Part shown: one piece after another, positions 7,367 through 55,150 of the stretch
How positions within the stretch are numbered: the first letter of the stretch is position 1
Layout of the letters: every line of letters begins with the position of its first letter
NCBI GenBank assembly: GCA_023213315.1
Contig: JAKCPI010015365.1
Span: 1 to 64,000 of the forward strand
Direction of reading: 5' to 3'
Length of the DNA stretch: 64,000 nt
From: Euborellia annulipes
Lineage: Eukaryota > Arthropoda > Insecta > Dermaptera > Anisolabididae
The notes under the pieces: generated by a model
Told to the model about the DNA's origin: nothing
The model's input: the letters and a program-made list of their open reading frames with translations, nothing else
Databases searched by the model: none
Translations under genes and position numbers: made by a program

Positions 7367-8027
7367 TACTTTCTCTTACCTCTATATATATGTTAATATA
7401 TATAGAGAGAGAAAGTATTGGATTCATGTCAAAAATTCGATGTCGAGATTTTGATGGATCTTCACGTTTTGAGGTCCCCTGAATCCAAAAAAGTGGTTTT
7501 CGAGACATCGTCTCTCTGTCTGTCGTGTCTGTAAACAAAATATCTCAAGAACGGAAAGAGCTAGGAGGTTGAAATTATTATATTTAAGTTAGGCACCCCC
7601 ATGGGACGTGACACGAAGCTTTTAAACAAAATCGACCAAAGAGTACTAGTACTTTACTGATTCACTTTTTCAGTTTTTTTCGATTTTCTCAAAATTTGCT
7701 CCAACAATTTTTTTTTAAATTAAAAAATCAATTATTTTTTAGATGCTCTTTAAAATGTATATTCTCATTTTGTGATTGAAATCTTCTGAAGACCACTTTA
7801 CTCTTGTACTCCATAGAAAAGATAGGAGAAATGGTTGCCATGGTAACAAAATATAATCATTTTCCCATACTTATAAATTTTATATTTTGAAATTCGAATG
7901 TACCGTACTGTCGGAAACTAAATATATGTCGACACGAAAAATCTGGTGTGAAAAGCACAGAACACAACTTTCGATTACCGAAGGTAAGAGAAAGTTGTGT
8001 GCTGTGCGCCAGTCACACCAGATTTTT
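7367..8027 (+). mobile_element. H1: hairpin-ended element
   Basis: The left end is an AT-rich hairpin with stem ACTTTCTC/GAGAAAGT; the right end is an 85-nt imperfect hairpin with outer stem TCTGGTGTGAC/GTCACACCAGA. The body contains the invariant block ATTCGATGTCGAGATTTTG and a variable TCTG/TG microsatellite. Non-coding; open frames in it recur only because the family recurs. No target duplication is visible. Confidence 0.8.
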
Positions 8028-8720
8028 CTGTAAAGATTGCGTTTGAAATATGAAGATAGCGAGGTTTTAGTAAATTTTATTTTCTAATAATGTTTTCATT
8101 TGTTTCAGGTAAGCTGAATCTCTCTTTGCGTTTGGTGAGTTTTATAAATATGTAAGCAAAAAGGAACCAACAACGAGATCTTTGAGATTAAGCAACTCCA
8201 ACCTCGAGAATTTTAGGGAAAATTGATTTCAATGAATTCCAAAATTTTTTGTAGGTTTATATGAAAAATGTTCAGTTTCAAAGAGCAGCGGCTATTTTAA
8301 AAGCACTGAGTACTTGCAATAGGTCTACATTTTCCAGTACAATACTGAGTGTTTCAATCACCTTTGAAAAGTGCTGGTATACCAGTATACAGGATACATG
8401 ATGTAAAAAAGTTAAAGAAAAATACTCTCTCCGAAATAAAAAATAGTCTCTCCGAATAGCGAGACTTAAAAAAATTCATAAAATTCTCTCACCTTATACA
8501 AATTAATAATAATAACTACTCGGGGGGGGGTTTCGTCGTTGAATCAACTTAAAGGGCGTACAGGGGGATTAGATTTGATTTTTCATGAGGAAAGTAGAAT
8601 TCAAATGGATCTTTAAAAAAATCTATGAAACTCACCAAATGTGAACCGATTATTTGTTCCGAACTCTACATAACGTCCACTATAAGGGTGCAGAATTGCA
8701 TTACGAAATTACCGGAAGTT

Positions 8721-9000
8721 TGAAAGGTTATATTTGCCGAGATTAGCAGGATTTTCTTAATTTGAAATGTTTAAAACAATAAAATGATTGTCTTCTGCTG
8801 AAATATAAATTCCATTGATTTATTTATTTAATTTACAGAAACTAGTTTCGAGAACATTTGTCCTCTTCATCAGTCTGATATAATATACAATATTTTACAT
8901 GAAAATTACATGACGAAATTATCTATATCTGTAAATTAAATCAATGGAATTTATATTTCAGCAGAAGACTATCATTTTATTGTTTTAAACATTTCAAATC
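8721..9000 (-). mobile_element. Hammerhead foldback element, 280 bp
   Basis: Flanked by an exact 10-bp duplication ACCGGAAGTT (8711-8720 and 9001-9010). Arms at about 8760-8838 and 8929-9000 are near-perfect inverted copies. Between them, on the minus strand, lies a hammerhead core. A tail of about 40 nt follows the second arm on the ribozyme's 3' side. No coding capacity. Resembles Penelope-like or retrozyme elements. Confidence 0.75.
8838..8877 (-). ncRNA. Hammerhead ribozyme (type I-like)
   Basis: The minus strand reads CAGA-CTGATGA-A-GAGGAC-AAAT-GTTCTC-GAAA-CTAGTT-TCTG. All core bases (CUGAUGA, GAAA) are present. Stem II has six pairs with an AAAU loop, and CAGA/UCUG can form stem I. Stem III (ACUAGU) is self-complementary, so a dimer would suit it, as described for Penelope hammerheads. 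Confidence 0.75.
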
Positions 9001-9009
9001 ACCGGAAGT

Positions 9010-9600
9010 TAGTCAAAAAGAGGGTGACAGACGGACTCTTCGCAATTATATACCTGGTATATAGATGTCGAACTCTCTAAGCACCTCTTCCCTCCCCCAC
9101 CTCCTGCTCCATCGCATTCCTGTTTTATTAGTTTTTAATTTTAAGACAGATTTTATCGGTGTTTTTAAAAATACCATTGACGCAAGTACAAGACGGATCT
9201 CAACTTGTCAATTGCATCCTCTTTGAAAGCCAAACTTAGTTGAAGGTCCCATCCCCCCCCCCCATCTCACCCTTGCCCAATTTCACTATTGACAGAGAGA
9301 AACAGCCTCCAAGTTTGATCTTCTCACTTCCAAATATCAATCAATTCCAAAAAAAAAAAAAAAAATATTTACTCAAATAAAATTGAAATGGAATAACGAT
9401 TGAAATAATATCAATTTAATTTAAATTAATTTTACCGTTCGACAGAGAGATGCATTGGGTTAAAAAAACTCTTTATTTTAATTATATGAAACTCTTTATA
9501 TTTGTAGGACATTGGTACGAACACCAGGAACTGATAGATTTAGACAATAAAGGCCATAGGACGAAAAGTATAGCGAATCGGCCCCAGAAGGATATATCTG
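9010..9600. other. Stretch with no gene recognised
   Basis: AT-rich with a C-run near 9250; no domain, SINE or clear TIR seen. Confidence 0.45.
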
Positions 9601-18140: not shown

Positions 18141-18183
<43 letters not shown>

Positions 18184-18840
18184 TATTGGATTCATGTCAA
18201 AAATTCTATGTCGAGATTTTGATGGATCTTCACGTTTTAAGGTCCCCTGAATCCAAAAAAGTGGTTTTCGCGACATGGTCTGTCTGTCTGTCTGTGTGTC
18301 TGTGAACAAAATATCTCAAGAACGAAAAGAGCTAGGAGATTGAAATTGTATATTTAAGTTAGGCACCCACATGGGACGTGACACGAAGCTTTTGGACAAA
18401 ATCGGCCAAAGAGTACTAGTACTTTACTGATGCACTTTTTCAGTTGTTTTCGATTTTCTCAAAATTTGCTCCAACGATTTTTTTTTTAAATTCATATATC
18501 AACTATTTTTTAGATGCTCTTTAAAATGTATATTTTTATTTTGTTATTGAAATCTTCTGAAGACCACTTTACTCTTGTACTCCATAGAAAAGATAGGAAT
18601 TTCTCCTATGGTTGCCATGGTAACAAAATATAAACATTTTGCCATACTTATAAATTTTACACCTTGAAAATCGAATGACAGTACTGTCGGAAACTAAACA
18701 CATGTCGACCCAAAAAATCTGGTGTGACAAGCACAGAACACAACTTTCGATTACCGAAGGTAAGAGAAAGTTGTGTGCTGTGCGCCAGTCACACCAGATT
18801 TTTTTTAAAGTTTGTTTAGACGTCACTCCTGAACCCCCTA
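17528..18840 (+). mobile_element. T3: TTAA MITE split by H4
   Basis: Starts TTAAGGCGGAATAGG; resumes after H4 as TTAAAGTTTGTTTAGACGTC and ends CTGAACCCCCTAAA (TTAA mutated). The two halves join exactly as the uninterrupted T2 and T6 do. Confidence 0.85.
18114..18798 (+). mobile_element. H4: complete hairpin-ended element inside T3
   Basis: Because the host T sequence is known, both boundaries are fixed: the element lies in a T-run, starting ACTTTCTCTTACC and ending GTCACACCAGA. Both end hairpins are present. A GA tract lengthens the 5' hairpin. No duplication beyond T residues. Confidence 0.85.
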
Positions 18841-19418: not shown

Positions 19419-20048
19419 TACTTTCTCTTACCTATGTATATATGTAATATATATATAGAGAGAAAGTATTGGATTCATGTCAAAAATTCGATGTCGAGAT
19501 TTTGATGGATCTTCACGTTTTGAGGTCCCCTGAATCCAAAAAAGTGGTTTTCGCGACATGGTCTGTCTGTGTGTGTGTGTGTGTGTGTGTCTGTCTGTGG
19601 GTGTGTGTGTCTGTGATCAAAATATCTCAAGAAGGAAAAGAGCTAGGAGGTTGAAATTTTATATTTAAGTTAGGCACCCCCATGGGACCGGGACAAGAAG
19701 CTTTTGAACAAAATCGACCAAAGAGTACTAGTACTTTACTGATGTACTTTTTTAGTTTTTTTCGATTTTCTCAAAATTTGCTCCAACGATTTTTTTTAAA
19801 ATTCAAAAATCAATTATTTTTTAGATGCTCTTTAAAATGTATATTCTTATTTTGTGATTGAAATCTTCTGAAGACCACTTTACTCTTGTATTTCATAGGG
19901 AAGATAGGAGAAATGGTTGCCATGGTAACAAAATATAAATATTTTCCCATACTTATAAATTTTTCATCTGTACAAGCACAGTACACAACTTTCGATTACC
20001 GAAGGTAAGAGAAAGTTGTGTGCTGTGCGCCAGTCACACCAGATTTTT
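19419..20048 (+). mobile_element. H5: hairpin-ended element
   Basis: TTTTTACTTTCTCTTACC to CACACCAGATTTTTTT, again bounded by T-runs. Internal TG/TCTG microsatellite at 19562-19612. A small deletion precedes the 3' hairpin. Confidence 0.8.
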
Positions 20049-20518
20049 TTACAAGTTTTTTGTCACAATAGCACAAAAAATTGAATCTGAAAGAATATAT
20101 TTATTTTATTTTAATATCTACGATAACTTTGCTTAAGCGTGTACGTATGTCATAGCCTACTATTAAGCAATATGAATTTTTTAAATTAGTTTTTTAAATA
20201 TTTTTTCAATTTTTAATTATAAAATGTAATTAAGCTATAAATATTTTTATATTATTCACTTTCAAAGACCGACGTCAATATGAAATTTTCATTGAGTTTG
20301 TAAAAATATATAAAACTTTTTTAATCTACTGAATGCCCGTGACCCGTGGATCTGGCCTGCGGTCCCTTATTTCAAATAAATTGGTTACCAAACATTTGAA
20401 ATAAATGAGGTTTAAAGCATTTAAAATGAAAAGTTTACTCATTGAGAAGATATGCAGAGTAAAGGCGACATATGGTATAAGGTAGATAGCGTAATTTACT
20501 CTGGAACACAGGTGATGT

Positions 20519-21959: not shown

Positions 21960-23440
21960 AAATGGATATGAATGCCATCTATTAGAGGAAAATATATTAA
22001 AGATTATTTCTGCGCGTCAAAGGAGACAGACAGACAGACACACTTTGCCTTTTTATATAATAATAAGTATGGGCTATAATGGAGGAATATATTACTTAGG
22101 ATTAATTGAAATATATGTCCGGGATATTTCGGAAATATTCGGGCATGCGGCGGCGACGGTCTCCTGTTAATATAAGGGAGGAAATCTGAATCATCAATTA
22201 GTGACTCGCCGGCTGCCGGTGAGTGAACATGGAGGGTCTATGTCAGTTTAGTATCTATTATTTATCAGTTAAAAATTCTTAGATTTTAATAGGGAACAAG
22301 GAAATTGAAAGTATTATGAATATAGATGAATAATAGGATCTTAATAGGGAATTGGAGATCTTTGATTATAGTGGGAATGTGTATTATATGAGATGTTGCC
22401 TCGTTGACGATCGGATACCCACCCACCGTCCCAATTTAGATACATTTCTTTTATAATATACCTATTATCCGAAGCCATCGTCGCCGCACTTCCGGAAATA
22501 CCCGAATGATGGCGAAAGTTTTCAATATTATAATTCTAGTATAAGCCCTTCGGCAATCATCGGGTATTTCCGAGAGCGGCGACGATGGCTTCGGAAACTA
22601 ATAATACTATAAAAGAAATGTATCTAAATGGGGACGGTGGGTGGGTACCCGACCGTCAACGAGGCAACATCCCACCATACAACACATGCACCCCAACACT
22701 CCCTCCCCCCTCCCCTCCCTCCCTCTCTCCAAGATTTAATAATCAAATTTATAAATAATTCCATGATCTATTAACAACTACTATTAAAATCTAAGATTTC
22801 TTTTTTTTTTTTTTTATTGATAAATAATCGGTCCCAAACTGACATAGCCCCTGCCTATGTTCACTCGCCGGCTGCCGGCGAGATACTAATTGATCCCATC
22901 ATCTATCCTTCCTTATAACAGGAGACCGTGGTCGCCCCTATGCCCGAATATTTCCGAAATAATCCGAATATAACCGAACTCATTTTAAATCATCTTTAGT
23001 ATTCTCCCAAGAGATGGCAGCAGGCTATAATTTGCTCACCGTAAATTTGGTTTCCTAATAAAATTTTCTTCCAAGAGATGGCAGCAGGCTATAATTTGCT
23101 CACCGTAAATTTGGTTTCCTAATAAAATTTTCTTCCAAGAGATGGCAGCAGGCTATAATTTACTTACCGTAAATTTAGTTTCCTAATAAAATTTTCTTCC
23201 GAGAGATGGCAGCAGGCTATAATTTACTTACCGTAAATTTGGTTTCCCAATAAAATTTCCTTCTAAGAGATGGCAGTGGGCTATAATTTACTCAACTATA
23301 AATTTGGCTTTCCAATAATTTTTCCCTAAATTTTCTTCAAACAGATAGCATCTATATCCATATCTTTATATATTTCTATCTACGTATATACCTATTATAT
23401 AAAAGACAAAGTGTGTCTGTCTGTCTATTAGATGCATAAG
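21960..23440. repeat. Long palindromic (foldback) structure, about 1.5 kb
   Basis: Three concentric inverted pairs share a centre near 22,540: AGACAGACAGACACACTTTG (22025-22044) with its complement (about 23407-23427; displaced outward by the tandem array); ATATTTCGGAAATATTCGGG.../...GAATATTTCCGAAAT (about 22119-22280 with 22800-22965); and GATGTTGCCTCGTTGACG... with CGTCAACGAGGCAACATC (about 22391-22505 with 22560-22672). GC-rich blocks such as CTCGCCGGCTGCCGG occur in both arms. No coding frame. It could be a foldback transposon or a dimeric insertion. Confidence 0.75.
23007..23330 (+). repeat. 64-bp tandem repeat, about 5 copies
   Basis: Units start at 23007, 23071, 23135, 23199 and 23263, each with AGAGATGGCAGCAGGCTATA, then CCGTAAATTTGGTTTCC. 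The first two are identical by eye and divergence rises rightward. The array lies in only the right arm of the palindrome. Confidence 0.9.
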
Positions 23441-24100: not shown

Positions 24101-24130
24101 GTTTCGGTCATTTTAAATGACCATCATCAG
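24101..24130 (-). ncRNA. Hammerhead ribozyme core
   Basis: The minus strand reads CTGATGA-TGGTCATT-TAA-AATGACC-GAAAC. All core bases are present and stem II has seven pairs. The base after the presumed stem III is G, so cleavage is doubtful. No inverted arms are evident. Confidence 0.6.
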
Positions 24131-28495: not shown

Positions 28496-28717
28496 TATAA
28501 AAAATCTGGTGTGAATGGTCGCACAGCACACAACTTTCTCTTACCTTCGATAATCGAAAGTTGTGTTCAATGCTTGAAACGCCAGATTTTTTGTGTCGGC
28601 ATATATTTTATATTTTGTTACTATGGCAACCATTTCTCCTCTTTCCTATGAAATACAAGAGTAAAGTAGTTTTCAGAAGATTTCAATAGTAAAGAATAAT
28701 ATACATTTTATAGAGCA

Positions 28718-29013
28718 AATCGATGTTTTTTACTCATTGTCAGTCTGTTTTGACTTGTTTTTAGGTCAAGGTTAATAAATTTGCTAGAAATTCATTTTTG
28801 AGAGGTATTTAAGGTTCTGATGATGACCGCCTTGGGGCCGAAACGGATAATAATACCCGTATCTGTAAACCAGAAAATAAATATCTCACAAAAATGAATT
28901 TCTAGCAAATTTATTAACCTTGACCTAAAAACAAGTCAAAACAGACTGAGTAAAAAAAAACATCATTTTGTAAAAGAAATTAATGTTTACCAGTCCGACA
29001 TCCTCAAATTAAA
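28718..29013 (+). mobile_element. Hammerhead foldback element, 296 bp, with 13-bp duplication
   Basis: Target duplication ATTTTATAGAGCA at 28705-28717 and 29014-29026; the host H sequence confirms the empty site. Arms of about 85 bp (28722-28806 and 28886-28968) are near-identical inverted copies. The hammerhead lies between them, and a 45-50 nt unpaired tail follows arm 2. Non-coding. Confidence 0.82.
28813..28848 (+). ncRNA. Hammerhead ribozyme core
   Basis: CTGATGA (28817-28823), stem II TGACC...GGCC with one mismatch, GAAAC (28840-28844). The cleavage triplet is altered (CGGAT instead of CGTC). Confidence 0.6.
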
Positions 29014-29396
29014 ATTTTATAGAGCATCTAAAAAATAATTGATTTTTGAATTTTAATTAAAATCGTTGTAGCGAATTTTGAGAAATTCGAAAAAAAAAAA
29101 AAAAAAAAAACTGAAAAAGTACATCAGTAAAGTACTAGTACCCTTTGGCAGATTTTGATTAAAAGCTTATTTTCACTCCTCAGGTGGGTGCCTAACTTAA
29201 ATATAAAATTTCAACTTCCTAGCTCTTTTCATTCTTGAGCTATTTTGTTCCCGAGACAAACATAGAGAACATGTCTCGAAACCCCTTTTTTTTAGATTCA
29301 GGGGACCTCAAAACGTGTCTATCCATAAAAATCTCGGCATCGAATTTTTGACATGAATTCAATGCTTTCTATATAGGCTATTTATAAAGTAAACAG

Positions 29397-29656
29397 TGCC
29401 CTCGGGGCTTAGTGTAGAGGTTATCGTGCTACCCTCGTATTCCAAAAGTCGCCGGTTCGGACCCCAGGCAGTCCGATAATTTTATTTAAGCCATTTGGAT
29501 ACCAAATGGCTTAAATAAGAATTCCTGGACCTCCAATATGTATATCCTCCAATATGGATATCGTCAAAAGTCTTATATGGCTTGAGTTGCCGAAAAGACT
29601 GTGTGAATGTGTGTGTTAGTGTGAATTAGAAAAGAGTGTGAGTGTTTAAAAAAAAA
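29397..29656 (+). mobile_element. tRNA-derived SINE (S3)
   Basis: Head TGCCCTCGGGGCTTAGTGTAG with B-box GGTTCGGACCC; tail TGAATGTGTGTG then poly-A. Target duplication AAGTAAACAG at 29387-29396 and 29657-29666. Confidence 0.85.
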
Positions 29657-30137: not shown

Positions 30138-31525
30138 TTTTATTTTCTCTAACCTATAGCCGCGGCTATATGTTAATATATAGAGAAAAATATTGGAATT
30201 CATGACAAAGATTCGATGTCGAGATTTTGATGGATATACACGTTTTGAGGTCCCCTGAATCCAAAAAAGTGGTTTTCGCGACATGGTCTGTCTGTCTGTG
30301 TCCAATTTTAAGCATGAAGGAATTGAGCTAGGAGTTTGGAATTTTATATTTAAGTTAGGTACCACCCTGAGACGTGCCCCGAAGCTTTTAATCAAAATCG
30401 GCCAAATAGTAGTCTACTAGTACTTTGCTGATGTACTTTTTTAGTTTTTTTTTATTTTCTCAAAATTCGCTCAAACGATTTTGATTAAAATTCATAAATC
30501 AATTATTTTTTAGATGCTCTTTAAAATGTATATTCTCATTTTGTGATTGAAATCTTCTGAAGACCACTTTACTCTTGTATTTCATAAGAAAGGAGAAATG
30601 GTTGCCATGGTAACAAAATTAAAATATTTTCCCATACTTATAAATTTTACATCTTGAATTCAAATATTTATTTATTTATTTTTTATTTATTTAAGGCAGC
30701 AGCAATAAAGCTGATAATCCCATTTTGTACAGGTTGTATTTTTTTTTTTTTTTTTTTTACATTCAAAAACATTCCAATACATTTTATTATTATTTTTCTC
30801 CTCTCCTTACATCAACCCCAATACTCTCAATTTTAATAATTCGGATGCAATGGCTTAATTATCTCATTAATATTAATTTTGTTTTATATTTAGTCTATTT
30901 TTGAAAACGTTTAAATTAAGGGCACTGACTGTTTCTTCTGGAAGCCTATTCCAGGCAGGCGTCACTCTGTTTGTGAGGAAGTGACTTCTCTGGCCAATTC
31001 GTGTCCTCTCTTTTGCCAGCTTGAATGAATGACCTCTTAGTCGCTCATTGTTCGACCTGGTGAATATTCTCTTGTTGTAAATATGATAGAGTTCATTTAA
31101 TATTTTGAACGTTTCGATGAGGCCACCTCTCTCTCTCTTCGTGGCTGCAGAGTTGGGATTTCTATTTTTTGGCACCGTTCTTCGTACATAAGTGTTGGTT
31201 TTTAGCTCTTGGTGGGGATTTTGGTCATTTTCCTCTGCACCCTCTCCAGGCGTTCTTTATCCTTTTTATAGTAGGGCGACCAGACTACATATAGTCTCAC
31301 ATAGCTAGTATAGGCGATTTTTATGAGGTCTTTGTTTTTTATGTTAAGCGCTATTTGGAGTAGATAAACAGAGGTGTTTGCTCTTTTTGAAACAGCGCAT
31401 ACTGTACTGTTGGAAACTAAATATATGTCGACACAAAAATCTGGTGTAACAAGCTCAGAACACAACTTTCGTTTACCGAAGGTACGAGAAAGTTGTGTTC
31501 TGTGCGCCAGGCACACCAGATTGAT
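30138..31525 (+). mobile_element. H8: H element split by the LINE fragment
   Basis: 5' part 30138-30660 and 3' part with the terminal hairpin 31387-31525; the two join as in H1. Confidence 0.78.
30661..31386 (-). pseudogene. 5'-truncated LINE (CR1/jockey-like) reverse transcriptase tail
   Basis: Read on the minus strand, 31202-31340 gives a segment with VVWSPYYKKDKERLERVQRK and 30873-31175 gives RERGGLIETFKILNE, RGHSFKLAKER, NRVTPAWNRLPEE and FKNRLN. This is the usual order at the C-terminal end of non-LTR retrotransposon reverse transcriptases (WSPY.KKD...LE.VQR; RRGDLIETYKIL; F.NRV...WN.LP..VV; F...L). The two parts are in different frames, so at least one frameshift is present. The 3' side ends in AAATAAATAAAT-type repeats near 30661-30690. 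The 5' end is cut off and joins H8 sequence directly at about 31386: H8 resumes with TACTGTACTG. It is a dead 3' fragment of about 0.7 kb inserted in H8. Confidence 0.85.
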
Positions 31526-31662: not shown

Positions 31663-31699
31663 CTGATGATAAACGAATTAATAAGTTGACCGAAACGTC
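31663..31699 (+). ncRNA. Hammerhead ribozyme core, solitary
   Basis: CTGATGA (31663-31669), a weak stem II, GAAACGTC (31692-31699). No inverted arms are seen. Confidence 0.5.
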
Positions 31700-32386: not shown

Positions 32387-32975
32387 TAGGGATGGAAAAT
32401 TCGACTCTGACTTTAGTCATGAATCGATCTTTTACTGAAAATAATCGACTTTTTAGAATCGAGTTGAAACTCTTACAAGTCGATTAGAATCGATTCTCAT
32501 TGGACGACTTCGACTTTTTTCTTACAATACTTAGTATCCGATGGTAATATAGTTTGTAATGTTTTCATTGATTGACTTTCACCTTTCTTTTAAAACCTAC
32601 ACATAACACACCAATCAACATGCTTTCTAAGATCGATTAGTGAACATATGTGGCATCCTTAATTCCTCCATTTTAATATTTTGATGTTTTATTTTGACAC
32701 TCAACTTTCATATTGCCCAAGGGGCTTGGAGTAGTTGGTAGCGTGCCTACCTTCTATACCGAACGTCTCGGGTTCGGACCCCAGGCAGTCCGATAATTTT
32801 ATTTAAGGCATTTGGATACCAAATGACTTAAATAAAAATGCCTGGACCCCACAATTGATATATTAAACATACTGATTATCGTCAAAGTCTTAAATGGCCT
32901 CAGTTGCCGAAAAGGCTGTGTGAATGTGTGTGTGAATGTGAGTGTGAATGAGAAAAAAAGTGTGAATGTTTTAAA

Positions 32976-36551: not shown

Positions 36552-36816
36552 ATATTGTAATATATAATATTATAAATAACAAAAATAGTGACAAAAAAGA
36601 TGCAAAACGTTCTTTAGAGCCAACTTTTACACATTTTCTACTTTTTCTTAATTATATGTGATGCGCAAAGTGAAAAGGGACCTCATGTCTGAAATTTCAC
36701 AAATTGACTTCTTGATATTTTATTGTAGAGGATAATTTCATGACCATTTTAAGACCACAACCACTATGAGATCTCAAAAACTAAAAAAAAAGTCACCGCC
36801 TTCAAAGTTAAAGATA

Positions 36817-37098
36817 ATGGAGTCATGAAAAAAACAAGACGAATGCAGCCAAATATTCTTTTATTTTAAATCTCGCCCCTCACGGCGGACGTTTCGGCCC
36901 GAGGTTTAGGCCATCTTCAGAGTCGGCTGGCAATAATCAAAATGTGTGAAAATTTGCAACAACAGCGACAACATTCAGTATGTGGTCCGCTCACAGCAAA
37001 ATGTAGAGAAAAATGGGGCCGAAACGTCAGCCGTGAGGGCGCGATTTAAAATAAAATAATATTCGGCAGCATTCGTCTTGTTTTTTTCATGACTCCAT
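36817..37098 (-). mobile_element. Hammerhead foldback element
   Basis: Inverted arms 36817-36900 and about 37016-37098 (GACTCCAT...TGAAAAAAACAAGACGAATGC). The arms themselves include the 3' half of the hammerhead: GGCCGAAACGTC occurs in both. A clear target duplication was not found. Confidence 0.7.
36888..36920 (-). ncRNA. Hammerhead ribozyme core
   Basis: The minus strand reads CTGAAGA-TGGCC-TAAACCTC-GGGCC-GAAACGTC: full CUGANGA and GAAA core, a GGCC/GGCC stem II, and a GUC cleavage triplet. Confidence 0.7.
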
Positions 37099-37506
37099 CA
37101 TCATTAAGCCTACAGCCACATATCTTTTCGGAAAAACAAAAAAAATATGAATTTTCAATCGTTTTTCATATACTTTGGTGCCTTAATTTTAACATACCCA
37201 GGATATGAACTAAAATTAATATACAAGTATAGGAACAAATTATCAACTTTTAAACTTATCTTTTTCTTTGTGTGCCGCCAAATTTTGAAATCGTTAAAAG
37301 TGTACTGCGACAAGTTGAGAATCACTGGTCTAAACGTTCTCAAATAACTCGACTACCTCAAGGAATTTTTATTAATATTATTTTATAATTATTTTAAGGA
37401 AACTTGAAATTATTCTTTTAAAATACCCTGTAATTACCTGTATAGGAAATATTGATGAATCGTATTCAATCGAAACGCAAAAATCGATATTTTTAATCTA
37501 ATTCGA

Positions 37507-37782: not shown

Positions 37783-37922
37783 GAAGTAATGAATTGTTTA
37801 CATTATGGCAGTGTAGGACCCATGCCTCACATTGAATCATCTGTGCTTAAATTATAATAATTTATATTCTCTGGGCATCTTCGGTTTTCTCAAAATTCGC
37901 TCTAACGATTTTAATTAAAATT

Positions 37923-38248
37923 GCATAAACAATTTATAGCTGAGATGTTATATTAATAAGAGGGTAAAAATGAGAAATGCAGCTAAGGTTATTTCTTTAT
38001 TTCGTTAATTCACACTGCTGACGTTTCGGTTTCGTGTTTGAACCATCTTCAGAGCGGGCAAAAAGTCATTATGAAAGTATCATAGTGGATTTTATACATT
38101 GTTGAAAAATTCTTATATAATAAATATATACACAGTGTGAGACGACCAGGTACATAAAAAAGATGTTTCAAACACGGAACAAATAGTTGTGTGAATTAAC
38201 GAAATAAAGAAATAACCTTAGCTGCATTTCTCATTTTTGACCCTCTTA
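37923..38248 (-). mobile_element. Hammerhead foldback element, 326 bp, in H10
   Basis: Flanked by TTAATTAAAATT (37911-37922 and 38249-38260); part of this is native H sequence. Arms at about 37949-38016 and 38196-38250 are inverted copies (TGAGAAATGCAGCTAAGG). A degenerate partial hammerhead also occurs near 38162-38185. Confidence 0.75.
38020..38052 (-). ncRNA. Hammerhead ribozyme core
   Basis: The minus strand reads GCT-CTGAAGA-TGGTT...AACC-GAAACGTC-AGC. The core is complete, GGUU/AACC forms stem II, GCU/AGC can form stem I, and there is a GUC site. Confidence 0.72.
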
Positions 38249-38690
38249 TTAATTAAAATTCAAAAATCAATTATTTGCCATCGTAACAAAAAAAATATTT
38301 TCCCATGATTATAAATTTTACAGTTTAAATTCAAATATACTGTACTGTCGGAAACTAAATATATGTCTACACAAAAAAATCTGGTGAGACAAGCACAGTA
38401 CACAACTTTCGATTACCGAAGGTAAGAGAAAGTTGTGTGCTGTGCGACCAGTCACACCAGGTTTTTTTTTTTGTTTTACGTTAATTAAATTTCTTCCATT
38501 CAACAAATTATTCTTCTATATTATTCTACAATAATATTAGAGTCGTCACTCAATGAAATCCTCCCACACATGGAGACCTGACTTGAAGTTCCCTTCGAGA
38601 TGCAACCAAACAAGCTTTGCTGTTAGGATGGCTGCATATCTGCCAGGCAATCTCTTTAATAAAAATGTAAAGTTGATTTAATTTTAATGC

Positions 38691-39795: not shown

Positions 39796-39827
39796 AGTTT
39801 CGATTCCTGTCCGACGATATATGGACC

Positions 39828-40063
39828 GTTTATTTTGAAAGTGGTGTAAGTCCATTTTTTTTTTAAATGAGATATAACATAATTTCTGCTTAACGTAAAT
39901 TTTCTATGTATAACTAGCTAGTGGTAAATTTCTTTAAAAATTCCCTTGTTTTGTACAAATGAAAATTGGTCGGTAAATAGATTTTTTAATAAACAGATAT
40001 GCTAACCTTTCATTTTCTCGAAATAATAGAAAATGGACTTACACCACTTTCAAAATAAACGGT
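39828..40063. mobile_element. GGACCG MITE in H11
   Basis: GGACCGTTTATTTTGAAAGT...ACTTTCAAAATAAACGGTCC, about 35-bp terminal inverted repeats, flanked by ATAT on each side (likely 4-bp duplication). Same family as 54687-54933. Confidence 0.82.
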
Positions 40064-40082
40064 CCATATTAGAATTCAAGTT

Positions 40083-40348: not shown

Positions 40349-41778
40349 AATTCAAGTTGTAAAATTGATAAGTATGTGAAAGTATTTATATTTTGAAACC
40401 ATGGCAACCATTTCTCCTATCTTTCTATGAAGTACAAGAGTGAAGTGGTCCATAAAAGATTTCAATGGCAAAATGAGAATATACATTTTAAAGAGCATCT
40501 AAAAAATGGTTGATTTATGAATTTAAAAAAAAATCGTTGAAATGAATTTTGAGAAAATCGAAAAATACTGAAAAAGTACATCAGTAAAGTACTAGTACTT
40601 TTTGGCCGATTTTGATTAAAAGCTTATTTTCACACCCTAGGGGGGTGTCTAACTTAAATATAAAATTTCAACCTCCTAGTTCAATTCCTTCATGCTTAAA
40701 ATCGAACACACACCCACAGACAGACCCTGTCGCGAAAACCACTTTTTTGGATTCAGGGGACCTCAAAACGTGTATATCCGTCAAAATCTCGACATCGAAT
40801 TTTTGACATGAATCCAATACTTTCTCTCTCTATATATTAACATATATATAGAGGTAAGAGAAAGTAAAAATAAAATTGTTTACTTTTGGACTTGGTCCAC
40901 TTTTGCTTTGAACCAATCATATATCGGAATATCGATACTAAACCAGTTTATAAATATTAATAAATAAAATGCAATAGATGATCCTCTTTGAACCAATCGG
41001 ATCAATTTCTTATCGTGAATGTGAATTTTACATAAAAGTTTCACTTCTCTAGTATCACTACACGGTTTTTATTTATTTTAACAAGTAGCAAAAAACCGAT
41101 GATAATAATAAATAAATAAACAAAAAGCAATCAGAGATTTTTTTTTTCATTGGCGATTGCTATCCATTCAGGTAGCAAGTCACTCATCAGGGAATTGATA
41201 GCAAATTCTTATCCTCTCTCTCTCTCGCTCTCTCGCTCTTTCAAATCCCTAAACTCAAATGTACGTGTGTAAGTGGATGTGCTTGTAGGTTGGTTTTATT
41301 CGTTCAAATCGAATGAGTTGCTCTTGAGACGTGCCAAAGACCTGCCTCTCTCTCTCTCTCTCTCTCTCTTGCTCTGAATCCCTAGACGATCCGATCACGA
41401 GAATAACAATGTCTACAACAACAACAAGTTTTTGGGAAAACGATACAAGAGAAAATTAAGAACCCTTTTTATTATTTTTATTTTAACCCCTCGTGCCAGT
41501 ATTAACTTGCTGATTTTTCTTTATGAATATTCAAAGATCAATTTAAAGAGGGGAAAGGTTTGATTGATAAGTTTATGAAAAAAAAATCACGTTTTGATTA
41601 AAATTAAAAAATAGTCCTCTATTTTACTCGAAAAATTAAAAATAAATCTTACATGGACTCCCGCCCCCCCCCCTTGTTAGACCGAATATTAAATTCCAAT
41701 TTTAACATTCGGACTAAAGGGGGTCAAATTTTTGTTTATCAGAAGGAGAGCAGCCAGGTAAAATGAAAAGCTTTAGCT

Positions 41779-41808
41779 GACGTTTCGGGTGCACACACTC
41801 ATCCTCAG
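41779..41808 (-). ncRNA. Hammerhead ribozyme core
   Basis: The minus strand reads CTGAGGA (fits CUGANGA), a GAGTG...CACCC stem II with one mismatch, then GAAACGTC. No inverted arms were found. Confidence 0.55.
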
Positions 41809-54641: not shown

Positions 54642-55150
54642 TGCGTTTTTTAATTATAGACCGCATTTTTGTTATTAATTATTTGGACCGTTTATTTTGA
54701 AAGTGGTGTAAGTCCATTTTTTATTATTTGGAGAAAATGAAAGATTAACATATCTGTTTATTAAAAAATCTATTTACCAACCAATTTTCAAATTGTATAA
54801 AACATTGGAATTTTTTAAGAAATTTACCACTAGCTATTTTACATGGGAAATTTACATTAATTTAAGCATAAATTATGAGATATCTCATTTTTTTTTTAAA
54901 TGGACTTACACCACTTTCAAAATAAACGGTCCATTTATTAAAAATATTAATACTGTACAAGTACTGTGCACTTGAGAACTGCAATTGAGGCTGCAGAATA
55001 AGCAGTCGAAACGTTGTACAGTATTTATATTTTTAATAAATAATTAATAACAAATGCGGTCTATAATTAAAAATTCCCTTAATAATAATAATTCAAACCA
55101 CAAAAGCTTTAATAAACAAACAAAAAAAAAAAAAAAAAAAAACATTAAGC
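54642..55150 (+). mobile_element. Hammerhead-type foldback in M6
   Basis: Arms 54651-54686 + 54934-54962 and 55012-55070 are inverted copies (AATTATAGACCGCATTT, ATTAATACTGTACAA). A 24-bp stretch of M6 is repeated on both sides (54618-54641 and 55151-55174). The core near 54990-55015 is degenerate (CTGCAGA...GAAACGTT). Confidence 0.65.
54687..54933. mobile_element. GGACCG MITE inside the foldback arm
   Basis: GGACCGTTTATTTTGAAAGT...AAACGGTCC with ATTT on both sides. The opposite arm keeps the uninterrupted site (AATTATTTATTAAAAA). Confidence 0.82.

Follow-up and report, generated by a model that had tools for sequence, protein, structure and literature searches.

At positions 28705-29026 of the window, the 64-kb stretch of the Euborellia annulipes genome that was analysed here, a 296-bp insert (28718-29013) is flanked on both sides by the 13-bp target site duplication (TSD) ATTTTATAGAGCA. 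This duplication scores 13, as compared to a median of 7 and a maximum of 11 for the best scores of the null. The insert is composed, in this order, of an inverted arm, a type-I hammerhead, a direct arm, and a tail (Table 1). The inverted arms (28723-28811 and 28878-28966) are 89 nt long, 89% complementary to each other and separated by 66 nt, and the left arm ends before the hammerhead is reached. The unit folds into a highly stable structure (z = -14.4), and its longest reading frame starting at the ATG of the hammerhead has 25 codons, as read by eye. The length of the tail depends on the point of reference: 43-47 nt from the insert's own left arm and about 32 nt from the position at which the tailless arm usually ends in the relatives. 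A previous sequence-only reading had described a non-coding unit of this size with inverted arms, a 13-bp duplication and a tail of about 45-50 nt, and this description is supported by our measurements.

The insert is located in a copy of the H repeat, an AT-rich sequence that is present in many copies in the window and contains a conserved hairpin close to its start. Eight other H copies in the window are uninterrupted at the corresponding position, seven of them as judged by alignment and the eighth (at about 14003) by similarity hits. At the insertion site, this locus has ATTTTATAGAGC as compared to ATTTTAAAGAGC in the other H copies, and the private T (ATA rather than AAA) is present in both duplicates, indicating that they are copies of this very target. 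Thus, the uninterrupted copies and the shared private T confirm that both boundaries are certain, as had been claimed from the empty site in the H element. Next to the H repeat, at 29398-29600, there is a SINE-like repeat (tRNA-derived as judged by eye) with matches at 32714, 42225, 60223, and elsewhere; ARAGORN detected no tRNA in the window.

Table 1. Features of the insert, its surroundings and related elements (window coordinates unless a locus is named).
Feature	Position	Strand	Basis or remark
Left TSD ATTTTATAGAGCA	28705-28717	.	TSD search and empty-site alignment
Left tailless arm	28718-28811	-	3' part of the repeat in inverted orientation; about -131 to -42 in family coordinates
Arm-arm junction	28808-28811	.	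4-bp overlap TTTA
Right tailed arm (hammerhead, 3' body, tail)	28808-29013	+	Family coordinates about -202 to 0
Type-I hammerhead	28813-28871	+	RNAalifold on 22 relatives and pair counts
Hammerhead stem I	28813-28816/28868-28871	+	
Hammerhead core CTGATGA	28817-28823	+	Followed by 1-nt spacer 28824
Hammerhead stem II	28825-28828/28836-28839	+	One A.C mismatch in this copy
Hammerhead GAA	28840-28842	+	
Hammerhead stem III	28843-28849/28860-28866	+	
Predicted cleavage site	after A28867	+	Inferred
Tail	28982-29013	+	From the usual tailless end to the sharp end CTCAAATTAA
Right TSD ATTTTATAGAGCA	29014-29026	.	TSD search
H repeat around the insert	28499-28717 and 29027-29386		
Other H copies near	7400-8048, 18178-18807, 19448-20049, 30179-30637, 40385-40840		
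Hammerhead foldback, 8760-8999	8706-9010	-	TSD AACTTCCGGT[G/A]ATTT; tail about 39 nt
Hammerhead foldback	36808-37107	-	Sole TSD candidate of low complexity
Second hammerhead foldback in H-repeat sequence, 37966-38238	37911-38260	-	TSD AATTTTAATTAA; tail about 30 nt
Decayed Penelope in L063	6860-8512	-	RT and GIY-YIG in separate frames

The core CTGATGA...CGAAAC spans 28817-28844. The pattern CTGANGA-N(8-30)-CGAAAC is present at 7 loci (8 matches) in the 64-kb window with an expectation of 0.08, so the hammerhead core is not a product of chance. An alignment of 22 stretches of relatives that cover the motif, the copy at 28718-29013 included, was folded with RNAalifold, and the program recovered all three helices of a type-I hammerhead without being prompted: stem I (GGTT/AACC), stem II (GGCC/GGCC), and stem III (ACGGATA/TATCTGT), with a predicted cleavage site after GTA. 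The enrichment of the core motif and this family fold both bear out the hammerhead that had been proposed for the element. In the aligned stretches, 96.9% of the cells in the helices are paired versus at most 51.2% if the helices are slid; a shuffle control also yielded 96.9%, and thus there is no covariation inside this young family. An alternative stem III derived from the single sequence (ACGG/CCGT) left stem I broken and was rejected in favour of the family fold.

Variation in the helices is found beyond these copies: among 30 further motifs from 180 kb, eight of which are copies of the same family as judged by GAAACGGATA, a stem II of 4 bp or more is located beside GAAA in 15 cases, always with one spare nucleotide after A9 and never with 0 or 2. 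Across the 30 motifs, the third and fourth pairs of stem II change in step (C-G, T-A, A-T, and G-C; C-G, A-T, and T-A), and positions 3-6 form 3.07 pairs on average versus 1.95 if the strands are swapped. Thus, the core nucleotides and the three helices of a type-I hammerhead are present, with the 1-nt spacer before stem II as the deviation. Rfam does not recognise the motif: there was no match anywhere in the window at the gathering threshold, and no hammerhead match at E<=10 in the element or in its relative L032; the miRNA matches obtained in the latter scan of the element correspond to its long hairpin. According to the accessible text of a review, the hammerheads of Penelope elements usually have no helix III (PMC6155905), and compared to them the 7-bp helix III of this family is unusual. 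Self-cleavage of the RNA is predicted from the fold, and with its full helix III this hammerhead may be better suited for a single-molecule cleavage test than the minimal Penelope ribozymes.

A search of the genome (903 Mb) with a query that contained the tail gave 115 matches, and 40 of 232 candidates were scored. Forty-one loci were fetched (L016-L045 and L047-L057; the insert described above is L016). With the repeat profile, 31 of them have two head-to-head arms and ten have a single arm (L026, L027, L028, L030, L038, L045, L048, L051, L053, and L057); weak second matches at L026 and L057 (370 bp off and converging; 1.4 kb off) were not counted as arms, and at L041 an insertion separates one arm into two pieces, which were joined manually. 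Seven duplicates or alleles recognised by common flanks (L017, L019, L037, L039, L043, L044, and L056), two loci with damaged arms (L022 and L047), and the ten single-armed loci were dropped, leaving 22 independent two-armed loci that can be classified. The hammerhead motif is present in the repeat of this family, i. e. in its pLTR, and the frames starting from the hammerhead ATG do not exceed 25-28 codons, as read by eye. The repeat profile was also run on another 160 kb of the genome (L046 and L058-L072), with the copy in the window as the only match. Among viral contigs, the arm was matched in none and the motif in 15. At the arm junction of L041 (about 1209-1472) there is sequence like the short inverted-repeat element ATATGGACCGTTTATTTT..., copies of which are found in the window at 39819-40069 and 54675-54942.

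All 22 two-armed loci share one plan: The arms are head to head, and exactly one of them carries the tail. The tailed arm ends at -1, -2, or, in one case, at -9. The end of the tailless arm is fuzzier, it lies 23-53 nt short of the tail site and between -23 and -33 in 19 loci; L016 is one of the three loci outside this range. If each arm drew its tail independently, simple arithmetic puts the probability of 22 mixed pairs out of 22 at 0.5^22 (about 2e-7) or less. Since the query contained the tail and only 40 of the 232 candidates were scored, pairs of two tailless arms are under-sampled; pairs with two tails, which would be expected to score highest with such a query, were seen in 0 of the 22 loci. 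A fair TSD (score >=10) brackets both arms in 16 loci and is absent from the other six, and 13 of the 22 exceed the maximum of 11 that was obtained with mismatched flanks (95% point, 8).

The single TSD around both arms is relevant to the idea that two separate copies of the repeat landed nearby in opposite orientation. Such a coincidence seems extremely unlikely for the family, as it conflicts both with the common duplication in 16 of the 22 loci and with the head-to-head arrangement with one tail in all of them. It may apply to single loci such as L035, whose arms differ by 11.8% and whose TSD is of low complexity. The data are similarly hard to reconcile with a retrozyme, i. e. a circular RNA that is cut by two hammerheads and reverse transcribed as a direct-repeat unit. 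The small size of the element, its lack of coding capacity and its type-I hammerhead are features of animal retrozymes as far as these are described in the accessible text of PMC7229834. In contrast to those retrozymes, the element is inverted, and the cleavage site is not its boundary: all 22 pairs are inverted and none is direct, the tail is at one end, and the copies end at a fixed tail site rather than at a cleavage site. As neither direct repeats nor a unit bounded by cleavage sites were found, we give a retrozyme origin hardly any weight.

Although the plan is constant, the foldback is not a fixed unit. The inner ends of the two arms are independent, and the lengths of the arms and their junctions differ among the loci: The longer arm is the tailed one in 8 loci and the tailless one in 9, the arms are equal within 15 nt in 5, and in 19 of the 22 loci the two arms meet bluntly or with a short overlap or filler (-9 to +12 nt). 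The sequence-only reading had held that copies without the arms would expose the foldback as a local accident. Indeed, 10 of the 41 loci have a single arm only, but the plan shared by all two-armed copies speaks against such an accident.

The relationship between the arms was studied for 14 of the 22 loci. The mean distance of the two arms within a locus is 0.035 versus 0.074 for random pairing of tailed and tailless arms (0 of 20,000), and there is no effect of the tailed or tailless label (291 of 2,000). The arms are thus alike by locus rather than by type of tail, indicating that the foldback is made anew at each insertion. This kinship is an average only, with the arms being mutually nearest at 6 of the 14 loci. 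In L016, either arm has closer relatives than its partner (distance 0.076; ranks 7 and 35 of 38), and its two cDNAs may therefore stem from two different RNAs.

These results bear on the possibility that the foldback itself is the mobile unit, either as a transposon of the MITE-like or foldback kind or as a hairpin RNA that is copied in its entirety. The terminal inverted arms with TSDs would fit this possibility, and L036, L037, L039, and L043 indeed have one structure in common; due to their common flanks (left, at least 47 bp; right, about 400 bp), these four were counted as copies of one insertion. A mobile foldback is at odds with arms that resemble each other by locus rather than by side, with junctions that differ among the loci, and with a tail that lies outside only one of the inverted arms, and we judge it to be very improbable. 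A foldback DNA transposon or MITE in the strict sense, with inverted arms as both termini that are inherited as a unit, was considered and rejected.

In LINE-1 twin priming, priming from the second 3' end of the target takes place farther upstream on the RNA than that from the first, and this results in an inverted 5' piece. If the second end primes in this way, microhomology to the target is expected at the tailless junction, and this is what was observed: In 13 of the 16 loci with a TSD, the tailless junction has on average 3.4 nt of microhomology to the target versus 0.68 nt if the TSDs are swapped among the loci (0 of 2,000). L016, L052, and L054 were left out from this count; in the case of L016, the tailless end is off the consensus and the arm match extends 2 nt into the TSD. 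The proposed second priming event upstream of the first one, yielding an inverted piece, corresponds to LINE-1 twin priming. The difference is that the two pieces are mostly different stretches of the RNA in LINE-1, whereas the two starts are within tens of nucleotides here and the arms are the same sequence.

Taken together, we regard it as probable that the insert is a non-coding, 5'-truncated Penelope repeat (pLTR) with a type-I hammerhead that was mobilised in trans and inserted by dual ("twin") target priming. A Penelope-type protein acting in trans would cut the H repeat with a stagger of 13 nt. One 3' end of the target would then prime reverse transcription at the downstream (tail) site, and this cDNA would pass the hammerhead and reach about 28808. 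The other 3' end would prime farther upstream, at a distance of about 40 nt here and about 30 nt in most relatives, and halt before the hammerhead, and the two cDNAs would finally be joined at the 4-nt overlap. Since the tailless cDNA ended at about -131 and did not reach the hammerhead, the latter would be present only once. The enzyme and the order of these steps are inferred. It counts against this reading that the sequences fetched did not include an autonomous element with the repeat in question.

For palindromic Penelope junctions, self-priming has been proposed in the accessible text of PMC3846280: The inverted arm would be copied from the first cDNA, or from an antisense RNA, after this had folded back on itself. 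Palindromic junctions do exist in the family, as in L032, which has a palindromic junction in 1094 bp with arms that are about 97% alike. The anatomy of the other loci makes self-priming unlikely: As the tailless arm is the longer one in 9 of the 22 loci, snap-back would have to add 5' sequence to the shorter tailed cDNA, which it cannot do, and a tailless cDNA cannot serve as the template for the tail, so snap-back self-priming fails for these nine loci. Copying of a tailed cDNA to its end should result in two tails, a combination that is absent from all 22 loci. Finally, the second outer end carries microhomology to the target in the 13 loci mentioned above.

Dual priming is in line with the properties of PAc, a Penelope enzyme of the Poseidon type from Anolis carolinensis. 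As reported in the accessible text of PMC11167929, the purified PAc protein cleaves and extends both strands of the target, starts at two adjacent internal sites of the RNA, which delimit the tail, and has a preference for AT-rich ATT targets. The family described here resembles this element in the hammerhead near the element start, the tail bounded by two start sites of the reverse transcriptase, and the AT-rich target, and for the insert, cutting and extension of both strands would follow from the proposed mechanism. In contrast to the autonomous and tandem PAc element, the family has no frame beyond the short ones mentioned above, and it has a helix III of 7 bp. PAc showed no difference between the strands in the choice of the start site (PMC11167929, accessible text); by itself, this indifference would allow copies with two tails and copies without a tail, and it does not predict the one-tail rule. 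A word search in the accessible text of this paper found no occurrence of "palindrom"; where "inverted" is used, it refers to a blocking nucleotide, and no link to inverted copies was present there.

The earlier reading regarded the foldback plan as distinct from published Penelope copies. This part of the claim cannot be maintained: In the accessible text of PMC3846280, Pen2a_Av of Adineta vaga and other Penelope elements are described with inverted head-to-head pLTRs, a 31-bp tail on only one of them, and a short TSD. The suggested relation to Penelope is supported, and the family shares with these elements the head-to-head inverted repeats, the tail on one side only, and the TSD. As a difference, Pen2a_Av has an ORF between its pLTRs, whereas only truncated, non-coding repeat arms are present here. 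The word "hammerhead" has 0 occurrences in PMC3846280. In summary of the Penelope-like features, we found a tail of about 30-40 bp at one end, inverted pLTR copies with a TSD, and a hammerhead in the pLTR.

The kind of element is thus known, and the element does not stand out among its kind. What is new is the family with its helix III, together with the evidence that priming is dual and follows a one-tail rule; of these, the rule is the valuable part. In the literature searched, which covered the field in part, no statement of the one-tail rule was found, and the rule or the helix III may be in print elsewhere. It is tempting to speculate that twin priming is the rule in Penelope integration and that the two target ends have fixed roles in it: One 3' end of the target would start at the exact tail site without homology, and the other would anneal by microhomology about 30 nt upstream, so that each completed two-ended insertion would be head to head with one tail. 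We consider the chances of this generalisation to be about even. If it is true, a single mechanism would account both for the "optional" tail and for the inverted pLTRs that have long been known, and it would replace self-priming. As to how Penelope elements finish integration, the additional steps for the active enzyme are "yet to be validated experimentally" according to the accessible text of PMC11167929; the genomic record provides a sharp rule (22 of 22 loci) and a mechanism that can be tested.

Foldbacks with other hammerheads of the same kind are present as well. Fourteen inverted loci with such motifs were found, with four same-family copies (L038, L042, L052, and L055) being excluded from these "other" motifs. 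Seven of the 14 have a usable TSD (8760-8999 and 37966-38238 in the window, L048:808, L021:1372, L022:2473, L023:1090, and L066:8075), and in these seven, one arm is extended by 22-39 nt and the other one by about 0; the TSDs of the five loci outside the window score 11-13, with null maxima of 10-16 in similar searches. The arms of the seven differ, and they were judged by eye to be separate families. No usable TSD was found for L048:1752, L029:1384, L046, 36920 in the window, L061, L070, and L071. In 150 kb of sequence away from the matches (15 stretches on contigs listed by the genome search, L058-L072), four of ten motif loci are in inverted arms. In one of these stretches, L063, there are remnants of a Penelope coding region (RVT_1, E 1.1e-4, and GIY-YIG, E 0.0068, both below the Pfam cut-offs). 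A hammerhead motif follows these remnants on the same strand at a distance of about 460 nt; it is another hammerhead than that of the repeat at 28718-29013 but resembles it, and the remnants count in favour of the Penelope reading.

In the window, hammerhead-like motifs without detectable inverted arms are located at 24101-24130 (-), 31663-31696 (+), and 41779-41808 (-). Foldbacks of the window that have no hammerhead-like motif inside (I1, I5, and I7-I15) were set aside. An inverted repeat at 22389-22674 has arms of 102 nt that are 89% complementary and a loop without a hammerhead motif, and at 23002-23318 there is a tandem array of 4.9 copies of a 64-bp unit with 92% matches.
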